Below, piece after piece: positions 15,151 to 51,949 of a stretch of DNA of 64,000 nucleotides. Every line of letters begins with the position of its first letter. The first letter of the stretch is position 1. The notes under the pieces are model-generated. The model had not been told where the DNA came from, ran no database searches, and worked only from the letters and a program-made list of their open reading frames with translations. A program made the position numbers and the translations under genes. The stretch comes from Beroe forskalii (Eukaryota; Ctenophora; Nuda; Beroida; Beroidae), in the NCBI GenBank assembly GCA_011033025.1, contig WFMF01000392.1:104882-168881 (forward strand), written 5' to 3'.

Positions 15151-15157
15151 GATTCAT

Positions 15158-15216: not shown

Positions 15217-15269
15217 ATATCACGCGTGACTATCTAACTAAACCCCTCTCCTCCCGGCTCCGCAGCACC

Positions 15270-15558
15270 ATGGCTCCTGTCAGTGACGCAGACAAGAAGA
15301 GCAAGTCTCGCTTCTCCCTCACCGGCAAGAAGAAGGATAAGAACTCTGACAAGAACCATGTCTCCAACTCGTCAGTCGCTGCTGCGGAGGCCTCCCCGGA
15401 CAAGTCTCTGCTCTCTCCCGCGACATCCGACAGAAAGGAGAGCATGGAGTCCGCCTCACGGTCTCCGAGTCTCAATAGGTCTCAGGCGGAGTTGGGTACC
15501 CCCGAGACCGCCAAGAAGGGCTCTAAGTTGAATATGTCCTTCAGAAAGAAGAAGAAAG
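15270..15558 (+). CDS. First coding exon, basic Ser/Lys-rich N-terminus
   Basis: The ATG lies in a strong context (GCACCATGG). The exon encodes 96 residues starting MAPVSDADKKSKSRFSL, with runs such as GKKKDK and FRKKKK and many SP/SR sites. It ends in phase 1 (AAAG|GTAAAA), and joining to 16112 restores DLDASTEQLR. The basic, serine-rich region could bind acidic lipid or be phosphorylated (inference). An open frame continues past the donor into a hydrophobic stretch up to 15743, which would encode an unspliced short form, but the donor and downstream coil argue for splicing. Confidence 0.8.
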
Positions 15559-18500
15559 GTAAAATATTGCTCTCCGTCTTCGCCCTTTGCTGGAGTGTTT
15601 TGCTCGTTCTTCTCGTGGGATTATTGATAATCTCCATTGCTGGTTTTACCATCACTCTCAATTATGAAATAATTTTCATTCTGTACATTTTCCACACATT
15701 ACTCATGCTTGAAGGATTTCAAATCTCAGAAACAAAAATATAAGCTCGTATTTTGGCTTTTCGATTTGAAACTTCTTCAAAGTTGCTGATAATGAAATGA
15801 TATTGGTGTGCATGGGGAGTTTCAAACAAAGTTAGCATGGTTTCTCCTGATATACAAGTCGCGTAAATGATAATAGGCGGTTGACGTTGCCATGACGAGG
15901 CCATGATGATAAAGTTCATGGTGCATTGATTTGATCACACTGCCGATTACTTCAATACGCGACCCAATCTGACAATCCCTGATAATTAACTTGCTGCTGT
16001 TATATACAATCTACATGACATAACCCCATCCCAACCTCTCAAAACTCTTGCTATCTCTTGAGTTTTGTGAGATAACAAGTCTTGTTCTCTCTAACACCTA
16101 CTTCTCCTCAGATCTGGATGCGAGCACGGAGCAGCTGAGGGCGAGTACCGCTGACCTGGCCGCAGCCCGGGATCGGGCTGGGGACCTCGAGAAGAATCTC
16201 ATGATGAAACAAGCTGAACTGGATGATACTCTCGTCAGGTACGCGGGTTTATTGATCACTATTCTGGCAATATATAGCACGAATCACTATGTTTGCCATC
16301 AGCCCTTCCCATACTTTTAGACACTGTGGTTGAGGGTTTGTAGCCAAATCTGTGTAGTGATTTGTTCAGTAGTAACCTGTGATACTGTCCTAATTATCAT
16401 TGGTCGTAACTTGTATTATGTCAATTTAATATACGACAGATAAGTCTTGATTAATTTCTATCATAGTGGTAAATAGCTCTATGAAGTTGTGATTGATGTC
16501 TACCTTGATGATGATGTAGATATCATGATAATCATCTCGAAATTATGTCTTGGAAGAGCGTGATTAACAAATTGCTTCCAGATTATATGTGCATATTATA
16601 TTATTTTAAATTCACATAAATAATTTGTCCCATTAATCGTATTCACTATTCATGTGAACTGCATATATTATGATAATTGTCGAAGTGATAATTGAATACT
16701 GAGCACTTCATTATATTAGATCGGTGAGCCTGAATGTGTGTGCGTAAGTGACATAACATAAAAGTAATGGAAGGTTCTATCAAACTCCATTAACCATTCT
16801 CCTGTATTGAGTTACGTTGTTTAGTCTATACCCTGGCGACGTGGCGTTAAATCTGCACCGGGTTGCACGCCCGCAATATGAATTCGTAATATGTAATGAG
16901 GTCTGGTGTAAGACACGTCATATGGGACCTGGTATTCTTGAAAATATATTCTTCAGCCGGTCGCAACATACCCGTTTTTATTTGCTCGATTTTCCCAATT
17001 TGATTAAAGACTGATCTGTACGGTCTATAAAAAAAGTCTTGAGTTAAAATTCCTAAGTTGAAAGTTTGATAATGGCCCGTTTTTTTTTACTTTTTGAATG
17101 GTTAAATAGTTGAAGATTATTTCTGATTTAGTGCAGTCATGATCGCATTTTGATTATCAGTGGACATATAGCAGATAAAAACTCTTATCAATGTTCATCA
17201 ATTTTGACTTGCAGAGGTTCTTTTTCTTTCTGTCCAAATTTGATATGAGATTCATTTTCACGCTTTTTCTGTATTGTACGAACTTAATTTTGTAAAGATT
17301 TCGAAGACTAAGAAAAGTTGACATTTCATCTTATGCAAGTGAACGCTTTGTGTACTTCCTTAAACTCTGTGTTTATAATTCTTTAGACGCATATCATGTA
17401 TACTATGTCCCGTTTAAGTTCGTAAATTTTAAGGTTACATTTTCATTTTTAAAAATTGACTTATGGACAAATTTCACACATCATTTCAGAGCAAAATGAT
17501 GAACATTTATGGTAAATTAACTTCTATAACCGTTGTTATCGACACAACTTGTCCATCGCCTCTCAACTTAAGGTCTCAAATGAGCAAAATTACCCCTTTG
17601 TAGTTTCTTGAATCCCCACATTACAGCTTGTTCCAGGAGAGTCATAGTGGTAAACGGCTATTGTTTTCCATTAAAAATGTTTCTTGTGAGTGTCAGCCAT
17701 AGCCAGATATCAACGGGAGTCAAATCTTGGGAGTAGGGAGGCCATGGCACGAAGATGTGTTTCTTAACTGCTCTCCTTCGAAAATGCATGTCAATAATGA
17801 CTCGATTTTGAGAGCCATTTGAGGTGTTCTACTAACTTGCATGAACCATGACGACTTCAGCATGTTTTTCTACATCAGCTGACACAAAAACCACGACAGA
17901 TCATCAAAGTGAATATGCCCGTTAACCTTGTTGTGGGAGCCATTTTAGTGGAATAATTAAGGAAAATGAAGATTTTGGGGCTAAAAGCGCCTCAAACCAT
18001 GACTTCAATAGGTGTTAACCGACTTCCAAGAGGCTGAACAGTGTCCCTGTTAAACGTCCAAAAATATTGATGCCAATTCTGGGATAATGGGATATCCCAT
18101 GACTGTAGAACCATGATGTGCCGGGAAACAAACTTAAGGTAATGTGCGCTATTCTCTAAGCACGCCCCTACAGGCTGCGAACTAGGCCTTCCTCTGCTTG
18201 TCTTTCAATCAGATTTGAAATTTTGCCTCATTGACTTTCATCAGTATTCTCAGACGAACAATCGTAGAAATTTTCAGCTCCAATAAATGATTTTTGGTTG
18301 ATGTTTTTTGAAGTTACGGGAGCTGGGTTATTTGAAACGAGGTTTACACACTTTTCACCTCAGCTTCTTTGATCGATGATTCCCGTCGTTTCCGCTGTCA
18401 TGAGCAGTTCCATGGTCACAGAATTTTTCGTTGATACACTGGAGAGTACCAAGGGTAGGTAAAATTTTGGTGTGATTTCCAGGTTGCTTCCTGGACGACA

Positions 18501-21500
18501 TTGAATCTTTCAAAGTGATGACCTCAAATGCACGTTTCAATAACATGTATTTTTCTCACTTCCAGTCAACGTGAAGAAATATGGACTCAAACTTCTGATA
18601 ACCAAATCAGGCCAAGATATGCCTAAATGTTCATCTATTTACTCCAATCTCCAGAACCATTTAGGGTTTTATCTCTATTGCAGTAGATGCAGAGTGTATT
18701 TGAAATTTACGAAGTTAAACGGGACACACTATAGAAAGTCCAATAGAATTTGCGAAGAACTCAAAACAAAACCCCAATTTCGGGGACTGAAGGGGTTACG
18801 CCCCTAGTATTATAATTTGAACATATTTACTGAAGTTTCTTGGCATTTGGTAAATTCCTCTTCCAAGAGACAATATAGTTGTATATTTGGCCTGTTATCA
18901 CCTGCGTCTTTGGAATTCAGTGGTATATTTTTATTGAGAAGTTATTTTATAATTTCACTCCAATATAACTGCCGCATTTTGGTGCTGCTTGCTGCCGTTA
19001 AGTTGTCCCGAACATTGTATGTTAGCTGCACAGTTACTCGAGGTATTTTACTACATTTAGCGTTCAGACGGCCCTTGGCTCATGCCTATGCTTTTAATCC
19101 AGACTTCTAATTGGGATCTTAGAGTGTCAGAGTATCCGCATTAAAGAGTTTAGGTGAACTAGACACTATCTGAGACCCTGCTACTTTGGCTTGAGCTTTG
19201 ACATGACCTTGGAACATGGTTGCTGTGTTACAGTGCGTATAAAGGGGGGGTCTGCTGAGGTGTGAAACCACTGAAACTCCACACGTGGCATTGCCACAGA
19301 GAAACACTCAATCGCCAGCTGGCACTGAAACTCATAATATATTCACATAGAGATCGCACGCAAACAACAGGCAGTCTTACGTCATCAACTCACCACTGTG
19401 AACCATGATAATGACGTCACTCTCAGCTACCTGTTATTAGCATTCACAGAACGAGTGTCTTGTAAGAAGACAGGTGGTGCTATAGGCTCCATTGAACGCC
19501 ACTTATTTCTTTCTTTGTCTTGCTTATGCAGTGTATCGAACCGCTGCCACGTCAATTTTACTCTTCGTTATATTGCTCAGTCTAGATGTAAGTGTTTGGC
19601 CTCTATTATGTCGGTTTTCTACTTATTATGGAGTCATGCACTTGTTTACCAGTCGCTTCATAATGCTATTCCCTCTTGACTAGATTTTATGTTCTGTCAA
19701 TACTCGATTACTCAAACGCCCATCAATCATATATCCGCTCAATGGAGCCAATCAAATACGAATTATTGATCCACACGTCACGCTTTACTTAGAATATATG
19801 AAATTTATCAACTTATAATGAACCATCCCTCTATCTTCTTGGTCATGTGATTTATTAACTGGTCACACATGAATTAACCCTCGCTTAATAAGCCTCAATA
19901 TTATCTACCACTTATTCTCCCTTCCCCCACACTTTATATCAGATGGCTTGAACTGAAAAGTTGTTTGATCCAACGATCTTCCCCTAATTCCCCCTTCCCT
20001 CTCCCAAGCTTCATCATAATATGACAGAATATCTACTTCTCTACCCCTAATTCCCCATTCCCTTAGGCTAGACCAGATGACTTTGAATTACCTCTAATAC
20101 CCCCCCCCAGGCTAGATCTGATGACTATGACTTGCCTCTAATACCCCCTCCCCCCTAGGCTAGATCTGATGACTTTGACTTGCCTCTAATACCCCCCCCC
20201 CAGGCTAGATCAGACAACTATGACATACCTCTAATACCCCCCTCCTAGGCTAGATCAGATGACTGAGAAGGTAGGAGAGTTGGAGTCCGCTGAGAAGGAC
20301 CAGTTGGAGAAGCTCGATGACAGGAAAGCGGAGATAGAGAACTTGAAACGGGAGATATCCAGACTCAAGTCCGTCGAAGAAGAGGTAAGCAAAATGTTTG
20401 TCGATTCCATCTAGAAAAGTATCAATCAATTTACAATGGATAAAGGCATTTTCCATCGTTATCCACAAAACTGCCTTGCAATAAAGGCCCTTGTTAATTC
20501 TGTTCATTTTTCCCCAATTCCCAATAAAAGTTTTTGATCATTTCTAATTTGGAATTTGAAATCGTGTAAGGAGCTTTTATTCATAAAATTGTATACCTAC
20601 GTGTAAATAACACAGTTAAACATAATCTTTGCAAATTTAATTTCTCCGGGGCCGCATTATGTATGGATATATCACGAACATGGTCCAAATATTAAATTAT
20701 TCATCTAATTATTCTGGGGATTTGAAACATTCTTCTAATAAAATCAGCCATGTCCGCTAGTTTAACCTTTGCGTTTATTATTGCGCCCTGCAGTGTTTCT
20801 GTTTTACACTGATGATTTTCCTCCCTATTCCGACAAACCACTGATTAGTGGTTGGAGATTTGGAGCCAGGGAGTTTTCTGGGTTTTAATTATAAGCACCA
20901 ACCATGCCACCCCATACCACGTCATATAATGCAATATTTCTGAATTCAGAAGTAACCGCGCTTATCTTTGAATCGCGCTAATTCTCTTCTGATAAACTCG
21001 AGATAAATCACTCCACCGAAATTCACCGCGCCGGCACTTTCTGCCACGTACAGTCAACGTACACCGTGCATTTCATCTTATCATATTATGCGAATGTGAG
21101 CATTTGACACGTGGGCAATGCAATGAGCAATGGGCACGTGTAAATGGAGGAATGTGTGTATGCAGGAACTCGTGTATGAAGGAATGCATGCGCAGGGTGG
21201 AATGTGTGACGTGTGGGAAACTCGATCCATGTCCTCACCAGGAATTGGGAAATATTCCTGCAGAGGTTACACCAGGGTCCTGTCTGGGGGAGTTTGGCTC
21301 CATATTGAAACCCGCATTAATTAACACCCTGGCGATCTCATTAAATCTAATAAATCGTACATGTATGTATCGTATGGTGGCCCCTGCAATGTTATTACTG
21401 CTCCCCACAAAACACCCTCCTCTTTCGTTAGTGTCACTTTTCTCTGTTTGTTGTCTGATGTTACCATTCCCTCACTTCATGTTTCAATGGCAGTGGCAAC

Positions 21501-24500
21501 TTGTCATAATTATGTTAACCTCGCCATGTTATAATACTGCAGCCTCGTTTGCCTCATGCTCGTGTGGCACTTTAAGTGACCCTATAATGAGGTTACAATT
21601 GGTGTTTTTTCTGGTTTTTGAAAATTATTCCAATCTGTTCGTGATTACAGTTTTACGGTGGCGTGTCGAACTCTTACGTGCGCGGATTTTTCATGCGCGG
21701 CGTAATTGCGCGCAGCTCACTGGCTGTTAATGACAGACACTGAGCTGCGCACGATTACGCCGCGCATAAAAAAGCCGCGCAGGTAGGAGTTCGACACGTC
21801 CCTGTTACAGCATCGATCGTAATAAATACTCGTCCCTCCGGTGCTTGACTTTATCACTCGCCACGCTTCTTCTCTTATTTTGTGGGCGCATAGCGCTACT
21901 TTTATCACTTCATTAGAACGTTTTCGTTCATTCTTTCAAACTGCGTCGCCAACGCCTTACACCCATTCATCATGATTAAAAATGATTTACATACTGTCCT
22001 CGGCTGTTCTCTGTGAAGTACAATACGATAAACACAAGTGCTAATAATTGTAAACTTATCCACTTCCTACTCCTACCCATCCCTGATTTCATGCCTCCAA
22101 CGGATCCCTTCACATCTCACCACCAGGAACTACATGACATATTCATTAGGCTCCCCCCGTAATGACATTACCCTTGTCACTGTTATTATAATATAGTTGA
22201 TACCACCCCCCACCAATAACATTCTCTGCCACACACAGAGACTCGGAACCAGATTTTCTGTTTATAATTTGACCCGATTTCTCCTACAATTTGTAGCTCA
22301 TTCTCCTACCTATAATATCTGATTGCAGTGTGTATGATATTACACTACCCAAACAATACTTGTTTGTATTTTGTTTCTTTGTTGACTCGGATAATTTGTT
22401 ACGTCTGGGAATGCAATTCTGTTTGCAATTGTTTCGAATAATAAAAAGCGCTTTTTTACTGGAAAGTGCACTCCTTAATGAAATGTACTTTGTGTTTAGT
22501 GCAATGATTTTGATGGAAATTTGATCACATATTTTCATGTCCCCTAATTTATCATTAATGTGATCAACGTTTCGTCTCTAAAAGTTTTTGGACATCACAT
22601 CAATTCTCTTTTCTGTTTTTCTACGCACCTTTTTACCGAAGTAGCACACTGCATTGTAGAAATTATTGTTGTTAGGACTTTCGGGGCCACACACAGAAAA
22701 ATGAAAATAAATCAAACTTTTGAAATAAATTTTAAAGCAGAGTGCTGACTCTTCATAAGTCCGAAAACTCGTTGATATCTCTTTTTGAATGAGTTTGTAC
22801 GCCCGCTCATCAATTTTAAATTTCAAATGGGATTTCATGTTTTCAGTTTTGTAATCTGATGTCCATATCATACCAGCGGCAATATTTTTTTCAAAGACAT
22901 TGCATTTATTCTAAAAATTCAGTACATATGTCAAATTCCTCGAGAAAATTTCATTAAATGAAGGAATATAGATGTAAGTTTTCATTCGGAACTGCCAGCT
23001 TTAAAAGAACCTATAGCGGCATAGCGAAGGCCCGTTGTCAAGAATTATGTTCTCTGAGCTCGGGATCACCTAAGTTCTTCACTCTTCACTTCAGATTCGG
23101 AAATTCATCCCTTACCCACAGATTTTCTGACAACTGTACAGTGTACACATCATGATATTAACACAGGCAACACAGACTTCCCTGTTTAAATTAGGCAGTC
23201 AACACAATTTCATCTTAGCTGCTGCTAATATCATAATCGTCTGAAGTTGTGACTGGAAATAGACAGTTCGGTGCCAACTGCCAACAGTTTAACACTTCAG
23301 TTCCTGATGATTATGTCACTGCTATCCGCCTAGTATTCCTGTGTTCTACAACAAAGTCGTGTGAGTGTTGTTACACGACCTGTCATCTGACTCACAACAA
23401 CTCTCCAACCTTGGAGGTGGGCCAAACAACACACAACAACTATCAAACATCGGAGCTGAGCCAAACAAACTCACAACCACTGTCAAACCTTGGAGGTGGG
23501 CCAAACTCACAACAACTCTCAACAAACCTTGTAGTTGAGCAAAACAAACTCACAGCCACTCCCAAACCTTGGAGCTGATCCAAACAACTCAAAACAACTG
23601 TCAAACATTGGAGCTGAGCCAAACAAACTCACAGGCTCACAGCGACTATGAAACCTTGGGGCTTGGGGGGACATGAGCCAGACAAACTCACAGCCACTCT
23701 CAAACCTTGGTCATTGAAGTTGATCCAAACAACCAATCTAAAACCTTGGAGCTGATCCAGACAAAACATGACCACTCTCAAACCTTGGAGCTGAGCCGAA
23801 CTCACAACAAATCCCAAACCTTGGAGCTGCGCCAGACAAACTCACAACATCTCTCAAATTTTGGAGCTGGGCCATTGAGCCTTACAAACAGAGCCGAAGT
23901 CCAGCCAACAGCGCACTGTGTCATATGATCATCTAAAAACAGGACTCAGAACTCTGTCAGAGTGATGGTGAGGAACAGTGAAACGTCCTAGGATCATGTT
24001 AACAGATCCTTCGCACCTTATCATGCCAGTAGCAATATAAGCGAGTTAACTGCTAAGAGTCCCTCATTTAACCAGTTTCTGTGAAAAGCTTTGAACAAGG
24101 TCCTTATTATTAGAAGTTGTGGATCCGCCTGTGAAGTGTAAAAGTGAGTGCCTGTAAAGAATTCTGCACCAGATGAGGCGTGAATTGTTACTAGTCGAAG
24201 ATGGACCCATAACCCCATAACCAAATTGACCCTTGTTGAAAAAAATACGACGTATTAGCTTCTGAAGAAAAATACACGTGTTTTTCTATTAAATACGTGA
24301 CTAACAATGGAAAACGAAAATTTTTTTTATAGTTGCTTGATACGTGACGAATACGAGGAAGATACGGTGAAATACGGATGTCTTCATAATATATGCAAAA
24401 TTCCGAAATTGGAGAAGAAAAATACAGCAGTTTTTGGCAAAAATGCTGATCGTATGTTTGTCGCATTTTCGAAAATGGGTTTTTAACATTGAGAAGAAGT

Positions 24501-27500
24501 AATCCTTTCAAAGATGTTGATTTGTGTTTTGGTTGTAAGATCCACAAAAAATTCGCCAAAATTTCTTGTATTCTTGGGGAATTCTATTTATTTACCGACA
24601 CCTAGGGTCAAACGTCAATTGGTGATTAGGTCTTGGAATAGAAAGCGTGCGTTTACATTTCATTAAATCCATTATAAGTAAGGCGATGGCATTATTCAGA
24701 TTTTGAGACGTTTTGATTATAATAGCAAAGGTAGTTACCTGTTATTTGTTTATATGTTCAATTTTCTTTTATTTGTTAGTTGACAATACGATTTCTTGGT
24801 AAGTTATTCATTTATTTATTACGTTCGTTGAACGCATTTACATAAAATATATTCAATTACATATTCAAGTTTTAACATGTAGGTAAGCTTTATTAAATAT
24901 AACTTATCACCATGTAATATAATCACGGACTTCCCAGTTAAATTTGGAAATTTAAAACTTTCTCCAATCAGCCTATTACATGTCCGTCGTCCCTTACCTA
25001 GCAATATACTAAACTCACATACACTTCTCATATAGACGTCCCCCCTCTCCCATTAGCAAATCTCATATCACAAAACTTCATGTGTCTTGCACTCAGCAGA
25101 TTGTCCCAACCACTTTGGATTCGCACATATATGAAGTGTTTTATCTCCATAATTACACTAGATGTTACGAGAGAAATGAGTGTCCTATCGGCCGGTGTAT
25201 CGGATTACTACTCCTACCACGGTGCCTCAACCCCTCACACAACTCCTTATTATTATACCTGGTACCCATACAGACGCACACACAGCCGTCAGTAACCGCC
25301 TACGAACTGCTGCTACTGCTGCTGGGTCACCATGACGACGAGTAGCAGGAGCAACAAGCTGGGAAGGAATTACGATGATGGTGTAGGGAAGGTGCTTCAT
25401 CAGCAGGAGAATAATGAGAGGAGAGGGAGGGGGAATACAGCAGCGCAGCACCACCAGCATCCACATCACGCGCTGCTACTGCAGTCCTCCTCCTCACCGC
25501 TCTCACCTGTCATTGATACCCGGACTAGTTTCTTTGAGTGCAGTGTCGCGTCCTCCGTACGGAACAAGTACATGAAAACCATTAACGTTGAGTTCGATGA
25601 GTTGTCGCTGAAAGTCAAGAAGGTCGATGTGTTGTTCGAGGATAAGAGGAACCCAAAGAATGGTCTGATACGCTACTCGTACGATGTGAGTTTATTATTG
25701 ATTAATTAAATTATTTTGTTAATGTGTTGGTAGGTGTTGTATATCGTGTAATGTATAATACGCATCTTATTATGGTGTGTGCATGTGTATTGTGTATGTA
25801 CGCTAGTGAAGGCCTCCTGACACACGGTACCCCGTCCACTTTTGATGGACAGGTTGTTGACAGGCGAATGCCAGGTTCGCAGACAGGTCAGGGACAGGTT
25901 CTGATCTGAATTAAAACAGGTTTCAACATTTTAAAAAAAAATTTCCGACGGGTTCTTGACGGGTTCCTGACGGGTTTTGGACAGGATTTAGACAGGTTCT
26001 TGACGGGTTTTTGACAGGTTCTCGACAGGATTTGGACGGGTTCTAGATAGATTTTAAACAAATTCTAGACAGGTTTTGGACGGGTATTTATGCAAGTTTG
26101 GACGGGTTTTGGACGGGTTTTGGAGAGATTTAAGACAGTTTTTTGACAAGTTTTGAACAAGTTAGGTCAGGTTTTGAACAGATTTTGGACGGGTTTTGGT
26201 TCATTTGATGTAATATTAATTGAATGTAATTATATTAATTTTATTTACACACTCGAGTTACATTCTCCATGCGAGCTTTTTTCTTCAATCCTGTGGAGCT
26301 GTACAGGAGATTTTGAAGTCGTTTCATTCCACGACAACAAGCAATAATGCGAAGAACAGGAAGACAGGACATATCACCTACATATAATAAAGTTATAATA
26401 TACGGGAAGAAAATAGAGGATCTGAAGATGATTTTTTTCTCCCCCATTGGCCTTTTGTATACAAAAGGTAATGAAGAGGGTTGGCAGGATCGTGGTTTAG
26501 GAAAGGTGAGAAATAGGATATGTGTATATCAGGTCCAGGTTTACAATACAACTACTGTAATTTCTTGAAAGTGTCCGGATTGCTCCTTTATAATATCAGT
26601 CGCGAAAATGTCCCTCCTTCCGTCCTTCCGTCCGTCCTCTTATCACAAATCTTCAATTCAAAATCACGAATTTCTTAATTCTTGGAGCTTTCGGTTGTCA
26701 AAAATTTTAATCTTATACGTTGACCAGGCCCATCCGTGCCACATTCCCAGTGACTAAAGTTTCATATCGACTAATGTCCTGGAAATTGATCTTCATTTCA
26801 AATACTAAACACGATTTTTTTCCTTCAAAAAAAGATATTGACCGAGGAAATATGAAGAAGGCTTGCCAAATTTGACTATCCTTTGAGAATTGATGTGGAA
26901 AATTGAATCAATATCTACAATAAGACACTGAAATTTTACACATATCGTCACACATAAATTAACATGACACATCATGACTCATGACTTCGTAGCGCAATCG
27001 GCTAACGTGTCGAAATTGGCAGTGCTGTCACGCTGGAGGTCACGGGTTCTGGCCCCACTATAGTCAAATTTCAAATTTTTAATTTCTGAGCTTATCTTCA
27101 GTTTTCTGATAGCAAAAAGTGATCCTACAGCCCAATCAGTTCATCAGAAAGATTTTAAATCATGTCACAGAAAATTTTCAGTAATAAGTTCAATTCAGCA
27201 GTTAGATTTGAAATACACGATGGCATGATACTAAAATTAGCATGTTTGTCCACTGCCCAGGTCGTTTAAACTTCTTATTTCCAAAATTTTGAGTTTCAAG
27301 ACATCAAAGCATCACGGGGAGGAAATTAGCGCCTGCAAACGTACGGAACAACAGTCAAACAACAATAATTTTGTCGGCAGGCGCAATTCTTGTTAATATA
27401 TTTAGTGAAATTGTGTACAACAATGATGGAGCTGTTGACGTGAAAACAATGCAAAAACTCTATTGAGGCGACATTTCTTTTAGCTCCAGAACTCTGGCAT

Positions 27501-30500
27501 CTGGGGGCTGCCGCCCCAGACCCCTGCTCTTCTTTCTTTCCATTTTTAATTTATTTAGTAAAATTGTGCACGACAACAATGGTGGATCTGTTGACATGAA
27601 AGTCGACGGACATTGCCCCGTCTATTTCTTCTGACTGGATGGCGAGGTTGCAAAGTGACGTCCAAATGTGGAACGTTGCGCCGCGCGCGCGGGTAGGGTA
27701 ACATCCTACGAACATGAAAGCAATGCAAAAATTCTATTGCGTTGACATTTCTTAAAACACCAGACCTCTGGCTTCTGGGGCTGCCGCCCCAGACCTCTGC
27801 CATTACTAATACATAAAATTAAATTACATTTATTTTCAAAAACGTCCTTTTTGCGGATGAGGCGCCGCGAGGTGACACCAAGTGACCTTAAAATTTGCAC
27901 GCCCCCAAAAATTGTGGGCTGGATCCATACCTGATCGGACAAAATTATCACGGAAATTGAACTCACGCTGAGCACATCAGCGTGAATATTAAAATGTCTG
28001 TGAAAATTTTGTCCGTGATAATGTCCAAATGATTTTCAGGTACGTGAAAATTAAGTCCGGTATTTCCTCTTAAAATTTCTAGGGTAGAGACGTAAAATTT
28101 CTGACTTTATCTCTTTAAACGCACACAATAAAATTTTTAAGGAAATTATACTTCTTTTTATGCTGAGAACGAAATATGGAAATTAATCATATTAATTAAC
28201 GAAATATATTGAAAAAATCTTGAAATCAAGTATTCAAATCGTGAAAAAAATCGAACCGAAAATTTCGAGATTTTCTTGAAATTTGATGGCAGGATCGAGC
28301 GTGAATATTAATGTCCGTGAAATTTTAGGTCCGTGAAACTTAAGTCCGTGATAATTATGTCCGATAAGGTACTTCAAACCTCCTGAGAGTATGGAGAACT
28401 TAAGTTATTTACGTCAGAAATTCACTCTATTGTTCGGGTCATATGTTGCGGTTTGGGATTTGCAAATTTTATGTTTTATTATATTCGTAACTAGTTCTCA
28501 TTAATTATTATATTTTGTTTAGAAGCCTCCGCGGTACCCTTCGTCCCTTCATGAGTTTACAAACTAATTGTTTACTTTTTCGAGTAACTGTCGGGTTAAT
28601 TTGCAAATTTTTATGTTTATTATTCTTAACTAGTTCATTAATTCAAATTTTGTTTAGAAGCCCTCCGAGCTACCCTTGAACAGTTCATGAGTTTCCAAAA
28701 CTAATTGTACTTATTCAGACGTTAATACCCTTATTTACTTCCCAAAACTCCTATTACAGTGCCCAGAATTTACATTTTTTTACTCGAGTTTTTTTCATGA
28801 AACTTTGGGAACCTAGTGAGAATGGTTATAATAGTAGGAGTTTGAAATTTCAGCTCTCTACCTTTTTTACTTTTTGAGATATGAAGCTGGTTCGTTTTCG
28901 TTCCACTGGACTGGGCCGAAATTGAACCGAACTCCAAATTGGATATAAACAAACGTAAATAAGATTTAAATGGTCAGAGATTGAAAATTATGGTACTGTA
29001 GCATGACAAAGGTCATGCATTCGTTTAAGATACCTAATCACCGATTTGGTGCATTTTTTGGCCCACTGGGCATAACTACATATATGGCTGTTTTAAGTTA
29101 CAAATTGACTTTTATAAGTATATCTACCTTGTCTTATCAATTAATTAGCTATACCTTAGCCTTAATAAAACATTAGTTGCAAGTTTTAATCCTTGAAACA
29201 GATCTGGTATTTTTCGGCCCACTAGGCAGACTTGCTTTACTGGGTATTAATTGCTCTTATTATACTGAAATACTATCTTGGTTGTTTTTAGTAAATGATA
29301 ATAAAAATTGGTGCAATAATTCAAGAAAAATGTAAATGGTGCATTTTCGGACCACTGGGAAAGTGTGTTTTTCAGAATCAAAACAAATTCTAATCTTAAA
29401 AACTGAAATTTGTATATTCGAATGAAAACCGTTTTAGGCTTACAGAATCACATCTTTGTTTTTTAATAATTCTACAGTCTTTACCAATATTAGCATATTA
29501 GCATATTATTCAATGAAATTTGACGGGTTTTGGACGGGCTTTGGACGGGTTTGACAAGTTTTGGACAAGGGTTGATGACGGGTTTTGGACTGTTTTGGAC
29601 GGGTTTTGAACGGGTTTCGGACAAGTTTTGGACGGGTTTTGGACGGGTTTAAACAGGTTCATGACGGGTTTTCGACGGGTTTTAAACAGGTTCATGACGG
29701 GTTTTTGACAGGTTCATAACTGGGTTAAAACAGGTTTCGACAAAGATTTCGACAGTTTGTGACAGGTTGTGAACGGGTTCGTGACAGATAAAGAAAATTT
29801 TACGGGCAGGTTCTCGACAGGTTTAGGCCAGGTTATTGACAGGTCTTGAACGGGATTTCGATTTACTTATTAGAGATTGGGACGGGTTCTCAATAGGTTT
29901 TGGACAGGTTTGTGACGGTTTTAGACGGGTTTAGGACCGTTTTCAACTCAATTGAGACAGGTTTTGACGGGGTACCGTGTGTCAGGAGGCCTTAGTGACT
30001 TAGCAAAAATTTATAACGCCAATGTACACCGTTTTAAAAACAGTTATTTGCCTAAGTTCCCAATTTCAAAGATTGGAAATTTTGTGATATCGGATACGAA
30101 AACATGGAGCATAGGTACCTGTCACTCAGTGCTTATTTTAAAAATGAATTTAAATGTCAAACTGTATGATACTACGAATAGCATAAATCAACTGGAATGT
30201 TAACGGTCATTCCTCAATTGTTACTCACTCGGTAGAACTTTTTGGAACTCTTCGCGCGTCATGTATCAAAACACGTGACATGGCGTCGTAATGTCATTGG
30301 TCGAGTAACTTGATCAGACAAAAATAGAGCTATCACGACTCAAATTAAAACATTGGATCAATGTCAGATAGTGTCAAATAGTGCAAGTATGAAATATGTG
30401 ATTGATGATTTAATTAAATCATTTAATTTAATGCTAATGATTTTAAATTCGAATTATGAGCTTCGAGTGGAACTCGATAGTTACTTAAAGTTGGTAAATT

Positions 30501-33500
30501 CATTCATAAATCAATGCGTCTCAAAATGAAGCTTTCCAAGGAAATTCTTTGGCAAGCCTCTACCAATACCATAACTTATCAGAAAGCCTTTGAAGATACT
30601 AAGATACGGAGAAATAATAATTTCAGATTTTAAAGGCTGCCAAAAATGATCGCCTCTGTTCTAAATGTTTTTACTATAGTATGCGACCTGAATTCATATC
30701 CGGGAACATATTTTTATGTATTTCATATTTTTGGCCAGTTTGCCGAGTTTGAAATCCAATTTACGGAGCGGCCTTGTATCCCTTAGATCGTTATGTAATA
30801 CCATAACTACACACTATTTCGGGGTGGATTTTCCATATTCCATTCGGCTTCCTCGATGAATATTCCCAAATCCACAGCTCAATATAGTGTAGTAACAGTA
30901 TAATACATCAACCGGTACTCAGTAGGATCCATTATCACTCTCGGACAGCAATGATGACGCAGTATCTGGCGTCTGTGTGTCCTGTACACATTGTGTACAC
31001 TCGGTGATGGTATATAATAATACCATATGTTCTTATCAGCGAGTATACATCCTCTTATCTTATTTACATTTTAAACCCATGTGTTGCTTTCTACATTTTG
31101 TGTTACAGTTTTCCTTGCTTTCTCACAGTTTGTCCCTACTGACAGCTGTAAAACATGCCTCATACCCACACATCAATAGCCACGAGAATACTGAGAATGT
31201 TTATCCTTGAAATTCCATTGTGAAGCCAGAAAAATCCTCGACGATGAATGAGATTCATTGGCACTTCTGTGCGCTATTTTTAAAGTGTCAAAATTTCTCA
31301 CAAGGTACTTTAGTACCGATATTAAATGAGATAACCGCTGGAATGCTGCATGTGTTATTACCCATAGGACTGTCAACTGCATTTGACCATTTTCATTCGT
31401 TCTTTTTCCCAGATCACCAAACATGCGATAAATCGTACAATTAAATCATCAGTCAACATGTCTTAGACCTTGAATTGGAGGTTCTTATTGCTGTCTGGTA
31501 TCTGAACTTGAGTTTAGTCTGAATGTCTTTATCAATAGCTGTCCAATAGCCATATCCCTGACACTCTGATATAGCTAACACTTTGGTCATTGGTTGATGT
31601 CACGTGACATTGTTCATTGGTTGATATCACGTGACATTGTTCATTGGTTGATATCACGTGACCTTCACCACGCGTCTACCACCACACTACACCTCTAGCT
31701 CTTCTCTCCTTCTCCTCCTCTCTCGTGTGGGGTGATTACCCACAACTTTAAACACCCCAGGCGTGGGTTTAGTACTCCTCCGAAGTACATGTCAATATAC
31801 TGATAGGAGTATATTAGGAGAAGTATACTGTCAATTTAATGCGTAATGTGTACCTCCCAACGCTAGCCAATAAACCGTGTGTGTGTTGATACACTAGTGA
31901 CAACACATGACACAACTATAATATACAGCATGCCTGTGGTATTTTGTCGACAGACAAGTAGGAATTTATATACGGTCGTCAGCCTCCTCAGCTGAACTAT
32001 ACCTGACTAGGAGTTTATTGTTTTCCCTTTGACACGTTCGTTTGGTCCGGTAGTACGTTATATCGATTACGTACAAATAGAGAGAGAGGTTTATTATATT
32101 GTACGTGATCTGGTCGTCGAAGTCGTTTTACTTTAAATTGGTAAATTTGTGTACCCAATCTGAGTGTAGATTTGTTACTCCGAGCAACTGTGGCGGCCGT
32201 TGGTACGAAGATTCCCAAATTCCTGGGATCGCCTATGGGACAGAATGGCTCCGTGCAGGTCACTGTCAAGGTAAGTATTGCGTAGAAAATTGGCCCCAAA
32301 TTGTAATTGGGATTATTTCATTTTAAGCTCCAATGATTACCAATTTTCATTTTTCCTCACATTTTGAAACCATTCATTCTATCACCAAACTATAACTGAG
32401 CTGATAGCACCCCCATTGTTCTATGCCGTGCAACCCGTTACAACTTGTGTTTACCCATCACATAACAATACCAAACACTGCTTACTACATCCTTATCAGT
32501 AATCAATTTCTCCGATTAGAGATGATCGATTGATAGCATGAACTGTACATACTCTCAATCCACACACTCACTAGTCACACTCGCCCAATAGGCGTATCTA
32601 TATCCTCAACTCACCATTCTAACGCCTGATAATGACATCACTCCTCACCGCCTATTGCACCGGTAGGAGATGCTCTGTCAACATGCATGTATGCATGACG
32701 TCACTCAGAAAACGGTGAGCTGCTGCCGACACTTGTACACTTTCTCGTGCAGTCTTTTTAATGTTTTATTGCTGAGAAAAACCTGCATCATCTCCTGTAC
32801 ATTGACTGCGTTTAATGAGCTCCTATCACGTATTTTTACTCATTCTTTCCGACTTTTTTTAGATTTTTACTCCAGCGGAGTTGTATGTATTACACCATTT
32901 ATTTTGCGGTTTTGTTTTTACCTATTTTACAATCAACACAGCTCAAAGGGTTGGTTAGATGGTTCAGAAGGAGATTCTGGTATAAAACTCCAGGAGCCGG
33001 TTAACAGCACTTCTGTACTGTAGTATGTAGATAAAAATACAGGTCAAAGAGGGCTCGACAGTAGACAAGTAGCCGATCTTGCCTCTCTCATCTTCAACAT
33101 TCTATCTAACATTCTTGACACCCTCAGTAAACATCAGTTACTGATCGAGAATATTAGTATGAGTAGATTATTTCATGCATATCATTGCATATCGATAAGT
33201 CAATAGTATGGTGCCCAGTATTATTGGTTCTGGTTCGTTTTGTTAGCATTATAATATTAATGAAATATTAATTTATCCTAAACTTATCTCATATATTCAT
33301 GTGGTTTGGTATGGGTGATTTAAGAACTTCTGCCATTTTTTCTGTACTAAAGTACTAGTATCGTAATTTAATAGCCTTAAGACTTTAGTTTTGTTAATCG
33401 GTTAATGCAGCCCTGGGAGTAATTTATTCCGGTGTCATTTCCATCAGGCATAATATTATTTATAATTACTGGCTCCTTGTGTTATCTCCTAAAATAGACG

Positions 33501-36500
33501 TGTTTAAGTAGCCTAATTATCAGGAACCAGCGTTGAAAAGCCGTGACTACGTCCATTTTACCAAGCAATAAAGTGAAGCCAACGTGGCCAAGTACTATTA
33601 ATGAAAATAATTTTACTTTAAATTGAGCTGGAAAATGGGAAATAAAGTATTGTTGAAGTTTTAAATTATTATGATCACTTTACGTGGAGATCTTAGGGTA
33701 ATTGAAAGTTCTCAATTTGATTATCTATGTTTAAGATCTTATCAACTTACATTTCGCAAGAGACATGTCGGACGGTTAAGTCTTTACTATAATTCTGTTA
33801 TTTGGTTTATCGTATCCTCGGCCTTATCGAGTAGTGTATAGCGTCTATCAGGCAGTATCAGTCATTTGAGAGCTTATCCGACGGATCGCGTGTTATGTGT
33901 AGCTAGCTTAATGCGATCGCTGATGAGGTGCTAGATTGGATTTTTGATAAAAAACGGTTAAAAGTATTCAATCAATTTGAATGGTGGTGTTTAAAATTTG
34001 CGAACCAGATGCTGCGTAGCAGCGCCGAGTGACTGAGTGAGCTGTGTAATTTGCAGGTCCAACGGGCCTGCTTGTACAATTGCAAATTCATTATCATACA
34101 GAATTGATTCTTCGTGGCTCTTCTGTCTTCACTTAATTAGGTATTCACTTCACTTCTATAGAAGGAATAGAAGATTGAATTGAAATTAGTCATCTTGCAT
34201 TTTGTGTGAAAATTTTGTCTGTATGTCTGACTTCTGTACAATTTTTCTATGTTGATTAGGGTTAGAATAGTTATTTGTTTTTAATAGCTATCTACCATAT
34301 TGAATTTTATCCCACGATGTGTTTTTTTAGTCCCTTAACCAAATTTTCGACAACTTTTATTGGTGGGACTCCATCCATAATCTTGCAGGACCTTTTTCCG
34401 TATTCCGCGGTTTTGGAAATTTGTTAGTAAGTTTCTTGTATTTTTATTCGCCTCAATAACATATTTTTAGCATGTTGGGGACTTTTTAGAGAAGGAATTT
34501 AGGTCTAACGTTACATTATTTTTGTAATCAGATTGTAAAATACTATTTCTACTATTTAAAAGTAAAACCGTTTGAGACATGGTTATAAATATTTTCCATA
34601 TTCCCTACACATGACTTCTGCATAAGATAAATCATTTTGTTGATGCGATGATTAATAATAAGATTATTTTACCAAATGTTTTATTTTCATACGTGTCTAC
34701 TGCGTGGGATAAATCATTGAACGGAAAATGATAACTTTTAATAACATTATTGTTACAAAGTACGTTGAAATTCAACATTTTGGTTTTGGTTTCTTTGTTT
34801 GTTAAATCGCTAGTTGGACAGATGCTATGATATGAATGAACTGATCTGGATGAACATTATATGAATTCAAATGATCTTCATCAAGTTGGTAATACTATAG
34901 TAGCCCAAGCAAAGTCAAAATTGTGCATTCAACAACATGCAAACAGCAATTTGAATTTGATACTTGATAGTTGAATAAAGCAAGAGTTCAGTTACAAAGT
35001 TATAATACATGTTTGTTCACTCGGCTTCATTTTAATTGGGAATGAATTTATTAAAGGCTATTTTACCTATTAGCATAATTCGAGGTTATCTTACATTGAA
35101 TTAACCTCACCGAGTCTTGTTAATCACATAATTAATCAACCCATAAACTAATATCGTTGCTAAGTTGGCTGAAGAGACTAATGAGTGATAGGATGCATAG
35201 TTAACTCCACTGTATGACTCCATTACGTTTGCTTACACTAAATCATTGCTCCGATGCTTCACTTAACTGTTTCGCGTTATGTACGTAGCCGTAAGACTTA
35301 CCCGTTGCACGTACGTACGTAACTCCTTTCCGCACGTCACTGCAAGTGGGGGGGGGGGCAACGCCATTTTAGGCCATCGACACATTCAAAATCACTAATT
35401 GGCCCTAGAAAATATGACCTTAAATGGCCTTCAAAATTCAAATATCTCAGATGTTTACCAAATCAAATGGCCTTCAAAATTGAAAATTTCCAGTCTTTTT
35501 TAAGCCATTCACAAGACACAACATCAAATTTTTGCATCAAAATACCTTACTAATTTCATGATCAAATTTTATGGGGCTTATGTTCAAAGCACTCTATCTC
35601 GGACAGACAAACATTATTTCCATAAGAGCTTCATTTGATATCTGGGTAATTCAGTAAAGCAAACTGAGGGCAACACCTCAGACACACTGATGGCATAAGG
35701 CGGCATTCTGGAGGAACGCCGCCTCATCTTCGGCGGACCTAGAGCTAACCTAAGGCGGACTAGGATGCACTCCGCATCACAAGGATGACATTACTCCCCT
35801 GGTCTCTGGCATCGTATAATGATTTTGAATAGTTCGAATTTTTCAGTGTTACTATTTTTGGAAAATTTTTGAGACCTGTTTACCTGAAAATCACAGAAGA
35901 ATCCAAAAGTAATTGCACCTTTGAAATATTTTCTCAGTGATGTAGATTTAATTCAATTCAAAGTCGGATTTCCCATGAGTGATTGAGTTAATTACATTTT
36001 AATTTTAGGTCCAAGGAAAACTTGCAGTCTGGAAATCATGTTAGGGAAGGCAGAAGTGTAGGATGGGTGACGCCTTCAGGGTTGTGAGTGGATGGGATAG
36101 GGTGGAGGTCTTCCGTTTTGAGAAATTGGCCGAATACCTTAGTACAGAATATTTATACGTCACGAATTTCATACGGATATTATTTATACGACATAAAAAT
36201 TTATACGATTTCATCAGCTACCAAGAAAATAGAAATTCGGCTGCATGAATTAAGTAAAATTTTGAAATTAATTATTCAATGTGAGACAAGAGAACGGGTC
36301 CACTAAGCCATCGGTATCCCTTATGTTTTGAGTATCACGTATTTTTCACTGCTTTAGCGATACCAGCTGCAGACCATCCTTGTAAAACGTTTCGCTTTCC
36401 TTCTGGTGTCTTAAAGTAAGTGAAAGCCTTTGATATTGTCTTTGCATGCAGAGTTCGAAGAACAGCTTTTCCTGTATTTACTTTGATGTCATCTATTCGT

Positions 36501-39500
36501 AGAGAAATGTTAAGGCATAGACTAGTAATCTCAGCACTAGCATCCTGTTCAATACGTTTCAATGTACGGTTAACAAGAATGGAAAATGGCGACAAGAATG
36601 GAAAATTTGTACGACAATAATTTATACTTCATAAATTTTATACGACATGAAATTTATACGAAAAAGTCAATATTCGTATAAATATTGTGATGTATAAATA
36701 TTCTGTACTAAGGTAGTAACTTATAAACGGGACCATAATCACCAATTTAATTTCATTCAAATCTGCTTGAAACTTGTAAAATCTTGATTTTTATCAAACA
36801 CACTGCTATTCGTAGATTAATAACAGTCCTACGGAAATTTGAAGTAAAGTGTAGGGCCCTTAAGGGCCATGCAACACATCTAGAATTGCATGGCCCTAAA
36901 TGGCCTCAAATGGCTTTGCCCCCCCCCCCCTCCCATACTAGGCTTTACACGTAACTACCTGCTGTACGTTACTACTAGGCTTAACACGTAACCCTTTGTT
37001 GTACGTTACTGCTAGGCTTTAGCTTTACATAAAACTCCCTGCCGTTACAAGTTACTCCTTGCTGCAGTAAAGTTACTCCTGCCAAGCGTTACTACAAGCA
37101 TTGCACGTGACTACTTTCCCAGTACTTGCGTTGCACGTTACCCAACCCATGCACCAACTAATGCCATTGTCAATTGTGACAGATTATAGCGGCTATAATA
37201 TAGCCGTGAGACATTTTGACATGTTTCTGGATTGTGTTATCGGTGGTTTAAGTTGTTGACAAATAATAACAAGTTTATACGGCTGGGTGTAAAGCTTCAG
37301 CCTCAGTTGTCTTGAACTTCAGTCTTGTCATTGCTGTAAAAGTCCTACTTGAGAAGCTTTATTAATGAGAGGTGCGTAGATCATATAAAAACAATTCAGT
37401 TACAGAAACTGTCAAATGTGCTAGAAAACGTACCTAACACTGATTGATTTAACGTTCCCCTTTTCATGCATTTCTGCGATAATTGGATGCCTGAAGCTGC
37501 CCAATTAGCGGTACTTATCTCTAGGTTCTTGAGAAATTGGAGGCCAATTAGCCGCTAATTAATAGTGTCACATCGTAACACTTTAAGTTGTACAGCACCC
37601 CTACAAATCCCCGCGCGTGGATTCTGTCATATGGTGTAGCTGCTAAGGAGTGATAGTTGGTTAGAGAGTGACGTCATCATCTTTGTTAAACGCGTACCCA
37701 AGATGACGTCACCCCGTCTATTGGTCTACTAACAGTCTTCCTGACTAAACACGCACCAACTCGTCGGACTGCAGAGGTTTCTCTTGAGTACACTCACATA
37801 GGTCACGCGCGGCTAGTAGCAGGGAGCTGATGACGTCATTATCATTGTTTAACATGACGAACTGATGACGCGGCTCTCCCTACCCTCCTGCGCGCGCAGT
37901 GTGTGTGTAGTGTTGCCTCTTATCGTACGGAGGGCGAAGTGTCAACGCGCATATGTGCATATTCCGTAATTATCGTGGTGTCACGTGAGTGTCAATAGAG
38001 CCAATGACGACGCTGTATAACATCCGTGATATTATAGTGTACGAGCCGCTGCAGATTCTCTTTATTCTACCACCTACCTATTGTAGGAGATCTCTTGACG
38101 TGCTTTGTTCGGTATTCAAATCATTGTATTGGTGTATATTATTTTGTAAAACTAAATTAGTTTGGTGAAGGAGCTCAATTGTGTATGTACTTGTTTAGTT
38201 GCCGCCTTCAGTAGTCGCCAAGTCGTGTTCAACCGTGAAGGATCATGGTCAACAAAACTAAGCATCTTACCCGCGTATGTACTTATCATCTTATCATCGA
38301 TACTATTTGACTAACAAATTCCTCCCTTTTCTCGCCTGCTTGACAGTTTTAGTTAATATATGCACTTTTTCCTTGCCCTCCTTGTCTTCATTCCTACGTT
38401 ATAGTGTGTCTGTGAAAATCATTGCACAGTTAGCACCAGTAGAATTACGCTTCACAAATCCATCTTTCATCTCAATTCAAAACAAACATAAGACAAATGC
38501 AACTTTTCATGCGCCCTCCTAAGTTTGACCTTTTACTCAATGGCGGTCGATGGATTCACACAGCACAAGAGGAGAAAAGTAGCGTAACATAAACATTTCT
38601 CATAAAAGCAGTGGCTCTCCATGGTTCCCATAACAAGCGGATTTGGATGGGGCGCTATACCCTAGAATCTAGACATAGGTTTTGAACAAAAGTTACAAGA
38701 TCTTAAACATAACCATGATCCTAACAATCACCAAGTCCCAGGAACATACTCCTCAATCGTGCTGTGCAAGGGATATGTAGTCTCAAGTTGAGGCAGGTTT
38801 CTTCAAAAGTTGAGACAGACATGTCCTCTGAGTTGTTCCAACGTTTGTGTCGAGATACTAGGATGCTGCCATAAAAACGGCATACTCACTTTAACGAATC
38901 TGCCCTGGGATAAATGATTATTTTATGGTCACGATAGTGTTCTAAATTCTAACTAATAAATTCTAGTTTTCAGATGAAATTTATCAAAATTTTGCTCACA
39001 AGCATCGTCCCACAATAACTCAGATATACCTCTCTGGCTCACTTGCCCCCTCCTACTCACGGCTCACCCACACACCTGCTGGCTTCCCTGGAATTGCCCC
39101 CTCCTCAAGAATCACTAAAGGAAGCGACTTACTAACATATCATCACCCGTCCAACTACATCACCCGTCCAACTACATCACCCGTCCAACTACATCCCCCT
39201 CCAACTACATCACCCTCCAACTACATCACCCTCCAACTACATCACCCTCCAACTACATCACCCTCCAACTACATCACCCTCCAACTACATCACCCTCCAA
39301 CTACATCACCCTCCAACTATACCCTCACTCGAACTCCCCCCCCCCTCCAACTTTACCCCCACTCCAACTTTACCCCCTCTCCAAAGTCCAACTATATCCC
39401 CCTCTAACTTTACCCCCACTCCAACTTTACCCCCACTCCAACTTTACCCCCACTCCAACTTTACCCCCTCTCCAAAGTCCAACTATATCCCCCTCTAACT

Positions 39501-42500
39501 TTACGCCCACTTCAACTTTACCCCACTCCAACTTTACCCCCTCTCCAAGTCCAACTATATCCCCTCTAACTTTACGCCCACTCCAACTTTACCCCCACTC
39601 CAACTTTACCCCTCTCCAAAGTCCAACTATATCCCCTCCAACTTTACCCCACTCCAACTTTACCCCCCACTCCAACTTTACCCCCACTCCAACTTTACCC
39701 CTCTCCAAAGAACCAACTAAATCCTCTAACTTTACCCCCACTCCAACTTTACCCCCACTCCAACTTTACCCCCACTCCAAAGTCCAACTATATCCCCCTC
39801 TAACTTTACGCCCACTCCAACTTTACCCCCACTCCAACTTTACCCCCTCTCCAAAGTCCAACTATATCACCCTCTAACTTTACGCCCACTCCAACTATAC
39901 AGTATACCCCCTCTCACGGCACATTCCCGCAGCACGAGCGGATGAAGGCGGAGAGCGCGAGGCAGGCCGAGGAGACGGCCCGCAAGAACGAGGAGACGGC
40001 TCGCAAGAACGAGGTGGCTAACCTCACTGCCACCGTGGAGGCTCGGGATCTGGAGATAGCGGCGCTCAAAGAACAGATGGCGGAGCTGGAGAAAACCGGG
40101 GAAGTCTCCAAGAAGTGCCTCAAAACACTTCAGGTAAAACACAGCGGGGTGATTGATATTTTGGCGCCTAACTTGAAAGTTGTTACCTGCGCACGTGATA
40201 AGTCACGAGAGACTGTATCTTGTTTGACTCTAGTTTTATGGGCTGTTTTTGGATGCTATATCGCTCATAATACCGGATCCTTGATAAGTACAATTACATC
40301 ACTGGAGTACTAGAGTTTGCGATACTTGCCGAAGTGATGAGCGATGACTCATACTGTACATCGGCTGTTACTCAACTTACCGACTTTAGGTCGTAAGCAC
40401 CCACACCGGATATGTTAGCGGTTAATGATGACGTCATTACCAAGCTTTATTGCGTTAAGAAAGTGACGTATAACCGAACCTAATATTCCTGCACGACCTC
40501 TGCTATGATAGCACACTGAATTGACAGGCGGTCAGAATGACTTCATGATAAAAGCGTAATGTAGTAAGTTGATGACGCTGAACCGCCTATTTTCCGTGCT
40601 CGGGTTTTCCTGAGAGTTGGGTGTGTTTCCTGGTCTTCCTCCTGTCATCACCCCCGAGTACGATTATTAAAACATGTGCGGGGTGTGATTTATCCAACAC
40701 ACTGCTTTCACCCTGTGTGGGAAAACTTCTCATACACAAAATATGGTAATTTATTATCCATAGGTAAGTAGGTAGCTAGAGAGCTTAGCAATGGTGTTCT
40801 AAGATTGATTGCGGAGTTAGGGTGCATTGACCTATCGGACTAGAGCGGAGGGCCCCATTCCCCAAGTCTGATTGGTTCTTTGGCTAGTGTGTTCATGAGT
40901 CTTAATCCTTATCCCCATATTGTGACTTCTAAATTTAATGAATTCACTGAACAGGTAACTGTGAAGGAACTGGAAGGAAAAATCTCGGAAATGGAAAGTC
41001 AGAAGGAGGAGCTATCCAGTACCTTCGCTGCTGATTTAGAGAAGGAGAAGACCAGACATAACTCAGAGCTTGAAAAACAGGTATACTCGATATCATTTTG
41101 AAGTTTTAAATTGAGGGTAAGTATTTAACTTATATCTTACAAAATTCATTGCGTTGACAAAACATTTACAAAATCAATAAGTAACTCATAATGAACGATC
41201 AGTCGAAGACTCTAATGATTCTTTTTACTGGGGATATGAGTTTAAAAGTAAAACCGTTTTGAAACTTCACACAAGATAGATAGGAATGTCGTCTTTGCAC
41301 GCTCGCCTGTGTTTCCCACCCGGACAGTCTATGAACTGTAGACTCTTGTCCACACACAGTCCAATCTGATAGAGGAGCTGTCTGCCTGCTTTGTGTCTGC
41401 ACCAGTATCTCGCCGTCTCAAGCCCCAGACCATCACTCACTGCCTGGTGTATATCCGTGAGATTATACCCTCTTATCTCGCTCTCTACCACTCCCCCTGC
41501 CCTCAACACACCCTCCATGTCCGCTCTCTCAAGTAACTCTAATGTCCGGTTGAAGTAGTCGGCAATGTCCGGTAGAATGTCCGCCGAACATGTCCCGTGT
41601 TTGCAGTACTCGTGTTCCCAGAACCGCTCACTACCGTACCCTCGCCACATGCTGGGCCACCTCACCTCCATCTCAGCGAGCAAGGTGGTAGGGAGAGCGG
41701 TGAGGTTGAGTGAGCAGGGAGTGGTAGGGCAGGGAGTGGTAGAGCAGGTGGAACAGTACTGGGGCCAGGAGGAGTAGCTGACACTGGGCCACAGTCCATG
41801 AACTGTCCAGGAGGGAGTGGTAGGGGGGATACACCCACTCCTCTGATAGCAGACTGCAGAATGGCGTTGTAACACGAGGTCTAGGTAGTTGTAGTGAGAG
41901 GAGGCAGGGGTTTGCTGGACCAAGGGCAGGAGGAGGAGGAGGATAAACAACAGAAACATAATGCTAATATAATGCTAATATTATTGTGAAATGAGAGGCG
42001 ATAAAATCAGTAAATAAGTTTGCACAGTCTTATCAAATTTTTGCACCGGAAGTAATTATCGAATCATGATTTAATGGCCTTATCGCTCCTTAGGGGTAAT
42101 TTTATCTTTTTTCAGCAGCAGTGCCATGCCCAATTCCAAAACTGTTCAAATCCTTAATTTCATGACCCGTAATTCAATAAAATTTTCTCTCACGTAACGA
42201 TGACACACATATTCCGCATATCAGAGCACCCTGGGAATCCTAAAACTCTCGTCTCCCAGGTGGGTCAGATTGAAGCTAAACTAAACGAGAAAGAGAAGCT
42301 TCTGGAAGCTCTGAACGCGGAGTTGGCTGAAGTCCGACAACAGAGTTCCACCCTGTCCTCTGAGCTGGACTCCTACAAGAGTGACGCTGAGTCGTCCTCG
42401 GGACTGGAGGAAGAGTTGGCAGCTCTCCAGAAACAACTGGCTTCCCTCTCCACCTTGCCTGCAGGTGGGTGGACTGTGTGGATTGTGGATGTGGGTTTGT

Positions 42501-51028: not shown

Positions 51029-51129
51029 TCGACGGGCGATGTCCGTCCCTTTCTTCTGACTTTTTGTTGGACGAAGGCGCAAAGTGACGTCCAAATGTGG
51101 AACGTTGCTCCGCGGCCCGCGCGGGTATG

Positions 51130-51931: not shown

Positions 51932-51949
51932 GATACCCAAAAAACACTA

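Follow-up and report, generated by a model that had tools for sequence, protein, structure and literature searches.

Dystonin (BPAG1) is a coiled-coil-rich protein whose a1, a2 and a3 isoforms carry unique N-terminal regions that set its location, and passages of the published account ascribe these isoforms to alternative splicing (PMC3352338). For dystrophin and utrophin, a second report describes in part how internal promoters (Dp260, Dp140, Dp116 and Dp71) yield N-terminally shortened rods (PMC1790709). Here we describe a gene for a long coiled-coil rod in a 64,000-nucleotide stretch of the Beroe forskalii genome (contig WFMF01000392.1; the whole stretch is called the window, and all coordinates refer to it). 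We propose, with a probability of about 0.4, that this gene has one main N-terminus and, in its 19.5-kb third intron, one or two internal promoters that would feed exon 4.

The rod gene consists of 15 exons with GT-AG borders on the plus strand (15270-49351), which join into a single uninterrupted frame encoding 944 residues; the gene model is intact and solid. Exon 1 (15270-15558) encodes a basic, serine-rich head of 96 residues (22 K/R, 11 D/E and 20 S), the coiled coil begins in exon 2 (16112-16238, where phases 1 and 2 match), and exon 3 (20249-20384) ends in phase 0, so that introns 1, 2 and 3 have phases 1, 2 and 0. After intron 3 (20385-39932) come exons 4 (39933-40133) and 5 (40955-41080), each running from phase 0 to phase 0; leaders joining 40955 or 42260 would thus also be in frame. 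Exons 6 to 14 lie at 42260-42464, 43729-43992, 44692-44859, 45037-45711, 46335-46397, 47128-47253, 48299-48415, 48584-48751 and 49029-49117, and exon 15 (49271-49351) holds a hydrophobic segment, ALITGLLGVAGVSGAVFGYIGSLYGC, and the stop. This segment (residues 920-938; hydropathy 1.82 over a 19-residue window) is the only one of its kind, the best window starting before residue 900 reaching 0.71; it is followed by a short tail and is likely to be a membrane anchor. By an ad hoc heptad score, residues 85-343, the part scored, form a long coiled coil with register changes near 169-204 and 260-274, and the joint of exons 3 and 4 (residue 184) falls within the first of these. Coil-type profile matches cover much of the rod outside residues 85-343. 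The whole rod gave four Pfam matches (ATG16, HMMR_N, DUF7801 and DUF3450), all below cut-off, and 11 NCBIfam matches, none at cut-off, most of them SMC/Rad50-type coil matches far below it. The 14 rod donors score from -1.1 to 7.0 bits (weights are textbook values), that of exon 3 reaching 6.9, and the 14 acceptors from 1.3 to 5.3 on a crude ad hoc scale, two of them below 2.

The case for internal promoters begins with clusters of promoter-like sites. Ten copies of the E-box TCACGTGA occur in the window where about one is expected (maximum of 4 in 60 surrogates). A scan of the window for seven standard promoter motifs, in which three sites or more per 300 bp counted as a cluster, found three: one ahead of exon 1, one at 31.6 kb and one at 37.7-38.0 kb; together they make 9 overlapping cluster windows, against a mean of 0.07 in 30 second-order Markov surrogates. 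The first comprises four TCACGTGA sites that precede the ATG of exon 1 (15157-15217), the second a 27-bp unit repeated three times in tandem, each copy with an inverted CCAAT and one TCACGTGA (31587-31661), and the third three cyclic AMP response element (CRE)-like TGACGTCA sites, one TCACGTGA and one CCAAT (37669-38007). A test on palindromic 8-mers, which used no chosen list, returned five clusters, three of them the same as these; in 100 surrogates there was no cluster in 98 and one cluster in 2. That test omitted low-complexity or alternating 8-mers such as ATATATAT and GCGCGCGC, which cluster too. By excess, TGACGTCA and TCACGTGA ranked third and fourth of 256 palindromes, behind two GC-alternating words.

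The arrangement at 31.6 kb also resembles a described composite site. Human USF/MITF sites stand 10-12 bp 5' of CCAAT in the portion of a report that treats them (PMC7793273), and the array read on the minus strand has the same order. The distance from E-box centre to the middle A of the inverted CCAAT is 12.5 bp in all three copies, half a base outside that range by the centre convention used; at the pair at 37981/38001 it is 18.5 bp. It is fair to infer internal promoters at 31.6 and 37.7-38.0 kb.

The 31.6-kb cluster is followed by a high-scoring donor. At 32270, about 610 bp past the cluster (about 0.03 of the intron length), the sequence AAG/GTAAGT scores 8.2 bits, the highest of 3782 plus-strand GTs in the window (the minus strand has one of 8.6). 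It would close a plausible first exon at 32235-32270 on the plus strand, with coding end MGQNGSVQVTVK and an ATG 574 bp downstream of the cluster. The encoded peptide would have 12 residues; its start, MGQNGS, fits the N-myristoylation start motif MGxxx[ST], a weak indication, as 2 of 327 intron ATGs fit. The VTVK within it resembles the beginning of exon 5 (VTVKELEGK), a likeness that we judge to be chance. The case for 38245-38274 (plus strand; coding end MVNKTKHLTR, ten residues) is weak: there is a cluster about 240 bp upstream of its ATG, with one upstream ATG, and its donor, CGC/GTATGT, is poor (-0.6 bits, below 13 of the 14 rod donors).

The first-pass annotation had proposed four N-termini from separate promoters, the others being exons 1-3 and a stretch at 25332-25685. 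Promoter-like clusters do stand upstream of exon 1, 32235 and 38245, which makes internal promoters plausible, and none was found for 25332, for which a separate promoter is unsupported; as coding N-termini the four are unlikely as a set, with 32235 plausible and 38245 weak.

In the arrangement that we favor, one or two internal promoters (near 31.6 kb and in 37.7-38.0 kb) would produce transcripts in which a short first exon, most likely the one with its donor at 32270, is spliced to exon 4. A 757-residue rod could also start within exon 4 itself, where the ATG at 39942, nine nucleotides past the acceptor, is in frame, and any leader spliced to this exon could therefore be non-coding. The shorter rods would have about 757-772 residues, without the basic head or the coil's first segment but still with the anchor, and with a very short new N-terminus or none (a start at 39942). 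In these forms the free end would no longer bind the partners of the basic head, and it would gain no new domain. A far more elaborate version, in which three promoters of E-box, NF-Y/E-box and CRE type, each read by its own factors, select the partners of the free end, the 31.6-kb promoter gives a myristoylated end and the rod bridges two membranes, strikes us as highly improbable.

A number of observations weigh against internal promoters. The seven-motif list was drawn up after the E-boxes and the CREs at 37.7-38.0 kb had been seen, and two of the five palindromic clusters (9348 and 9600) lie ahead of no known gene. Being a tandem array, the 31.6-kb cluster is one event copied, and Markov surrogates make no such arrays, so its rarity is overstated. 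E-box and CRE sites are palindromic and give no direction. Nearness of cluster and ATG is not significant by itself, as 66% of random intron points lie within 574 bp of a candidate ATG and 36% within 239 bp. Five short upstream ATGs lie in 31690-32235 and the 32235 start context is moderate, and past the 38.0-kb cluster the top donor in 38000-39140 has 0.1 bits. The acceptor-like sequence CTCTCCTCCCGGCTCCGCAG (15246-15265, plus strand, score 4.2) ends 4 nt before the exon 1 ATG, so that the cluster before this ATG need not mark a transcription start, and the true first, promoter-proximal exon may be another one. Published motif data, as far as the relevant passages go, point the same way: NF-Y/USF pairs are present in long terminal repeats (LTRs), with one shared-site group in human endogenous retrovirus (HERV) repeats (PMC7793273), in human promoters USF motifs and NF-Y motifs tend to occur apart (PMC6238301), and TCACGTGR and CRE show no peak at fly promoters (PMC1779564). 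These human and fly data counsel caution against assuming that such clusters are promoters in any animal.

The two regions were also considered as repeats and as promoters of the opposite strand. Self-comparison of the window found no repeat copies of 31000-32500 or 37300-38400, losses to the low-complexity filter aside, and the segment 31560-32300 matched nothing in a near search of phage records, which carries little weight as those records hold few animal sequences; either region could still be a solitary LTR. Elsewhere in the window, an inverted-repeat element (51123-51938) contains four TGACGTCA sites, so CRE-like sites can be repeat-borne here. Minus-strand donors of at least 3 bits in 30000-31587 and 36000-37700 amounted to one of 3.3 at 30229 and one of 3.9 at 37434, and these scores are not decisive on minus-strand use of the clusters.

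Exon phase had been offered as an argument for alternative N-termini. Each of the four stretches does begin with an ATG, is followed by GT and has a length divisible by 3, and the exon at 39933-40133 opens in phase 0; the stretch given as 15270-20384 ends in phase 0 as described and is in fact three exons (15270-15558, 16112-16238 and 20249-20384). The chance of 1 in 27 attached to the three internal phase matches is wrong, however: intron 3 contains 36 comparable phase-0 donors, and the match reflects selection. With the score of the weakest claimed site as threshold, donors reachable from an open ATG number 36 in phase 0 (50 pairs, 42 ATGs), 32 in phase 1 and 25 in phase 2, and the same count on the reverse strand of the intron gives 37, 39 and 41. 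A first-order Markov model predicts 28.8 phase-0 donors (standard deviation 5.4), with at least 36 in 11% of 200 surrogates. Nine score at least 2 bits (8.3 expected; 43% of surrogates), six at least 4 bits (2.5 expected; 3%), and one ATG-linked donor at least 8 bits (0.09 expected; 8.5%), so good phase-0 donors are at most mildly in excess. Since the internal stretches were picked for their phase-0 ends, their phase cannot be counted as evidence; three such cases are expected many times over, and we rejected exon phase as an argument for alternative N-termini.

The related claim that the internal stretches lack acceptors of their own stands for strong acceptors. On the crude scale the best AG within 60 bp upstream scores 1.7 for 25332 and 1.7 for 38245, with none of at least 1.0 for 32235; within 300 bp the values are 2.8, 2.9 and 1.7, respectively. 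Downstream, 25700-39931 holds 28 acceptors of at least 2.5, among which only that of exon 4 leads into a phase-0 frame longer than 33 codons. A gene nested in intron 3 was rejected as well: a six-frame Pfam scan of 20385-39832, in which stops were read as residues (table 28), found no family at cut-off and one weak match below it (Diguanyl_cycl_sensor, E 0.029). As a control, the same scan detected LANC_like, Ank and MYND in 53001-62702; in 4001-13902, scanned on the plus strand, nothing reached cut-off.

The stretch at 25332-25685 (plus strand) is the longest candidate, with 118 residues, and has coding features of its own. Its 354 nt were equalled in 8 of 200 surrogates, its G+C content at third codon positions (GC3) is 0.65, and its start context, gtcaccATGA, is good. 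Its codon score ranked 1, 2, 4 and 4 among 122 intron open reading frames (ORFs) against a whole-intron background, and 1 of 122 against a biased background that omitted 25200-26000; codon scoring is weak here, as the ankyrin/MYND gene fails in leave-one-out and the RNase T2 gene of the window comes out near zero. Over the first half the frame shifted by two has the higher score, an overlapping minus-strand ORF scores equally, four upstream ATGs lie in 24990-25332, and the donor at 25685 is fair. In the 400 bp upstream, CCAATCAG at 24964 is the sole listed motif site, TATA-like words aside. A single-sequence structure model (whole-model predicted local distance difference test score, pLDDT, of 56, the first part being of low confidence) places three beta strands in residues 79-116, with pLDDT of 71-88 in ten-residue blocks from 81. 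The peptide matched nothing in Pfam or NCBIfam and nothing among PDB sequences at better than E 0.7; its model gave 339 matches to PDB folds at E 10 or better, none at 0.001. An origin from an ABC transporter (ATP-binding cassette; ABCG-like) was considered and was unsupported by the searches. No relatives of this exon or of rod exon 9 were confirmed in viral contigs, a result of little weight given the few animal sequences in those collections.

These findings bear on several other accounts of the locus. It is quite possible that the gene has a single N-terminus, that the intronic stretches are chance frames and that the clusters are enhancers, repeats or promoters of unrelated non-coding transcripts. 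The near-chance number of phase-0 stretches, the poor donor at 38274, the 12- and 10-residue peptides and the cluster-to-ATG distances all fit such a gene. It accounts less easily for clusters that are missing in nearly all surrogates, one of which precedes the top-scoring plus-strand donor, or for the mild phase-0 excess at 4 bits and above. That all four N-termini are real, with four promoters and four coding first exons each joined to exon 4, is very improbable. Every one is in phase 0 with exon 4, and exon 4 has the one suitable acceptor among those of at least 2.5, weaker ones falling outside that count; phase is uninformative, however, 25332 has no cluster, the 38274 donor is poor, and the predicted beta-strand end of the 25332 peptide would sit oddly beside a coil.

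Alternatively, 25332-25685 could be a real exon of another, unrecognised transcript, or a 126-codon single-exon gene ending at 25709, and not an N-terminus of the rod. We consider this rather unlikely: the long ORF, GC3, codon rank, start context and partly confident fold speak for it, and set against them are the empty family, sequence and fold searches, the want of any other downstream exon found, the better shifted frame over the first half, the equally good minus-strand ORF and the upstream ATGs. A split at intron 3, by which exons 1-3 would yield a soluble 193-residue head through intronic polyadenylation at AATAAA signals and internal promoters would yield the anchored rod, is improbable. 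Read-through of exon 3 adds nine residues (VSKMFVDSI) before a stop at 20412-20414, with AATAAA at 20480 and 20523; two such signals within about 110 bp have a chance of about 0.003 (50 occur on the plus strand of the window), a post hoc figure, and AT-rich sequence commonly holds poly(A) signals. The exon 3 donor, moreover, is good and its phase suits exon 4, and the joint has coil before and after it. One main N-terminus with one or two internal promoters feeding exon 4 is the account that we prefer.

The borders of intron 3 and the gene starts showed further features. Around exon 3, a minisatellite of about 45 bp (20042-20264) carries imperfect copies of the exon 3 acceptor and its first 16 nt (CCCCTAG followed by GCTAGATCAGATGACT), which create several look-alike acceptors ahead of the true one, and a C-rich minisatellite array (39141-39900) stops about 30 bp short of the exon 4 acceptor. 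Of 2438 ATGs on the two strands, 7 have an acceptor-like site scoring at least 4 within 15 nt, including those of exon 1 and of the ankyrin/MYND gene (ATG at 53530; site at 53497-53516, score 4.3, 13 nt before it); the RNase T2 gene start has a weak one only (1.3). Such sites before two start codons suggest introns in 5' untranslated regions, or spliced-leader trans-splicing, in the source organism.

The genes near the rod gene mark the window as animal-like genomic DNA. A Ribonuclease T2 gene, apparently of a single exon, lies inside rod intron 5 on the minus strand (41267-41959), with an ETS-like site about 85 bp upstream. An ankyrin-repeat/MYND-finger protein gene with apparently one coding exon (53530-54864) and a LanC-like (LANCL) gene of at least two exons (about 56.6-59.1 kb) follow downstream. 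Rod intron 2 contains a transposase fragment on the minus strand (17658-17825; Pfam DDE_3 match at E 0.18 only), which we take to be mariner-like, and a tRNA-Ala (GGC) at 6320-6393 was found by ARAGORN and Rfam.

With golgin-84, giantin and SLMAP, which are tail-anchored coiled-coil tethers, the rod shares a long coiled coil and one C-terminal hydrophobic segment; it differs in that it reaches no family cut-off. The array at 31.6 kb is like the NF-Y/USF composite site, as described in parts of its report, in having an E-box 5' of CCAAT at about 12 bp, here three times (PMC7793273); here the pairs of putative sites form a 27-bp tandem array. If internal promoters feed exon 4, they would show that, in raw sequence, alternative first exons are to be sought through site clusters and not through exon phase. 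A putative myristoylation motif, like that suggested for MGQNGS, is also present in one dystonin isoform (PMC3352338). Dystonin, however, carries actin-binding and microtubule-binding domains and its isoforms have been described, whereas those of the rod are predicted; we claim no sequence relation. Dystrophin and utrophin offer a further parallel, with their internal promoters, some of which have a short unique coding first exon (PMC1790709). They are built of spectrin repeats, not of a long coiled coil, and are conserved across species. Internal promoters that feed a shared exon are an already known kind of arrangement, and the gene described here would, if our reading is right, add a tail-anchored coiled-coil rod with a dystrophin-like layout and different input signals for each promoter.

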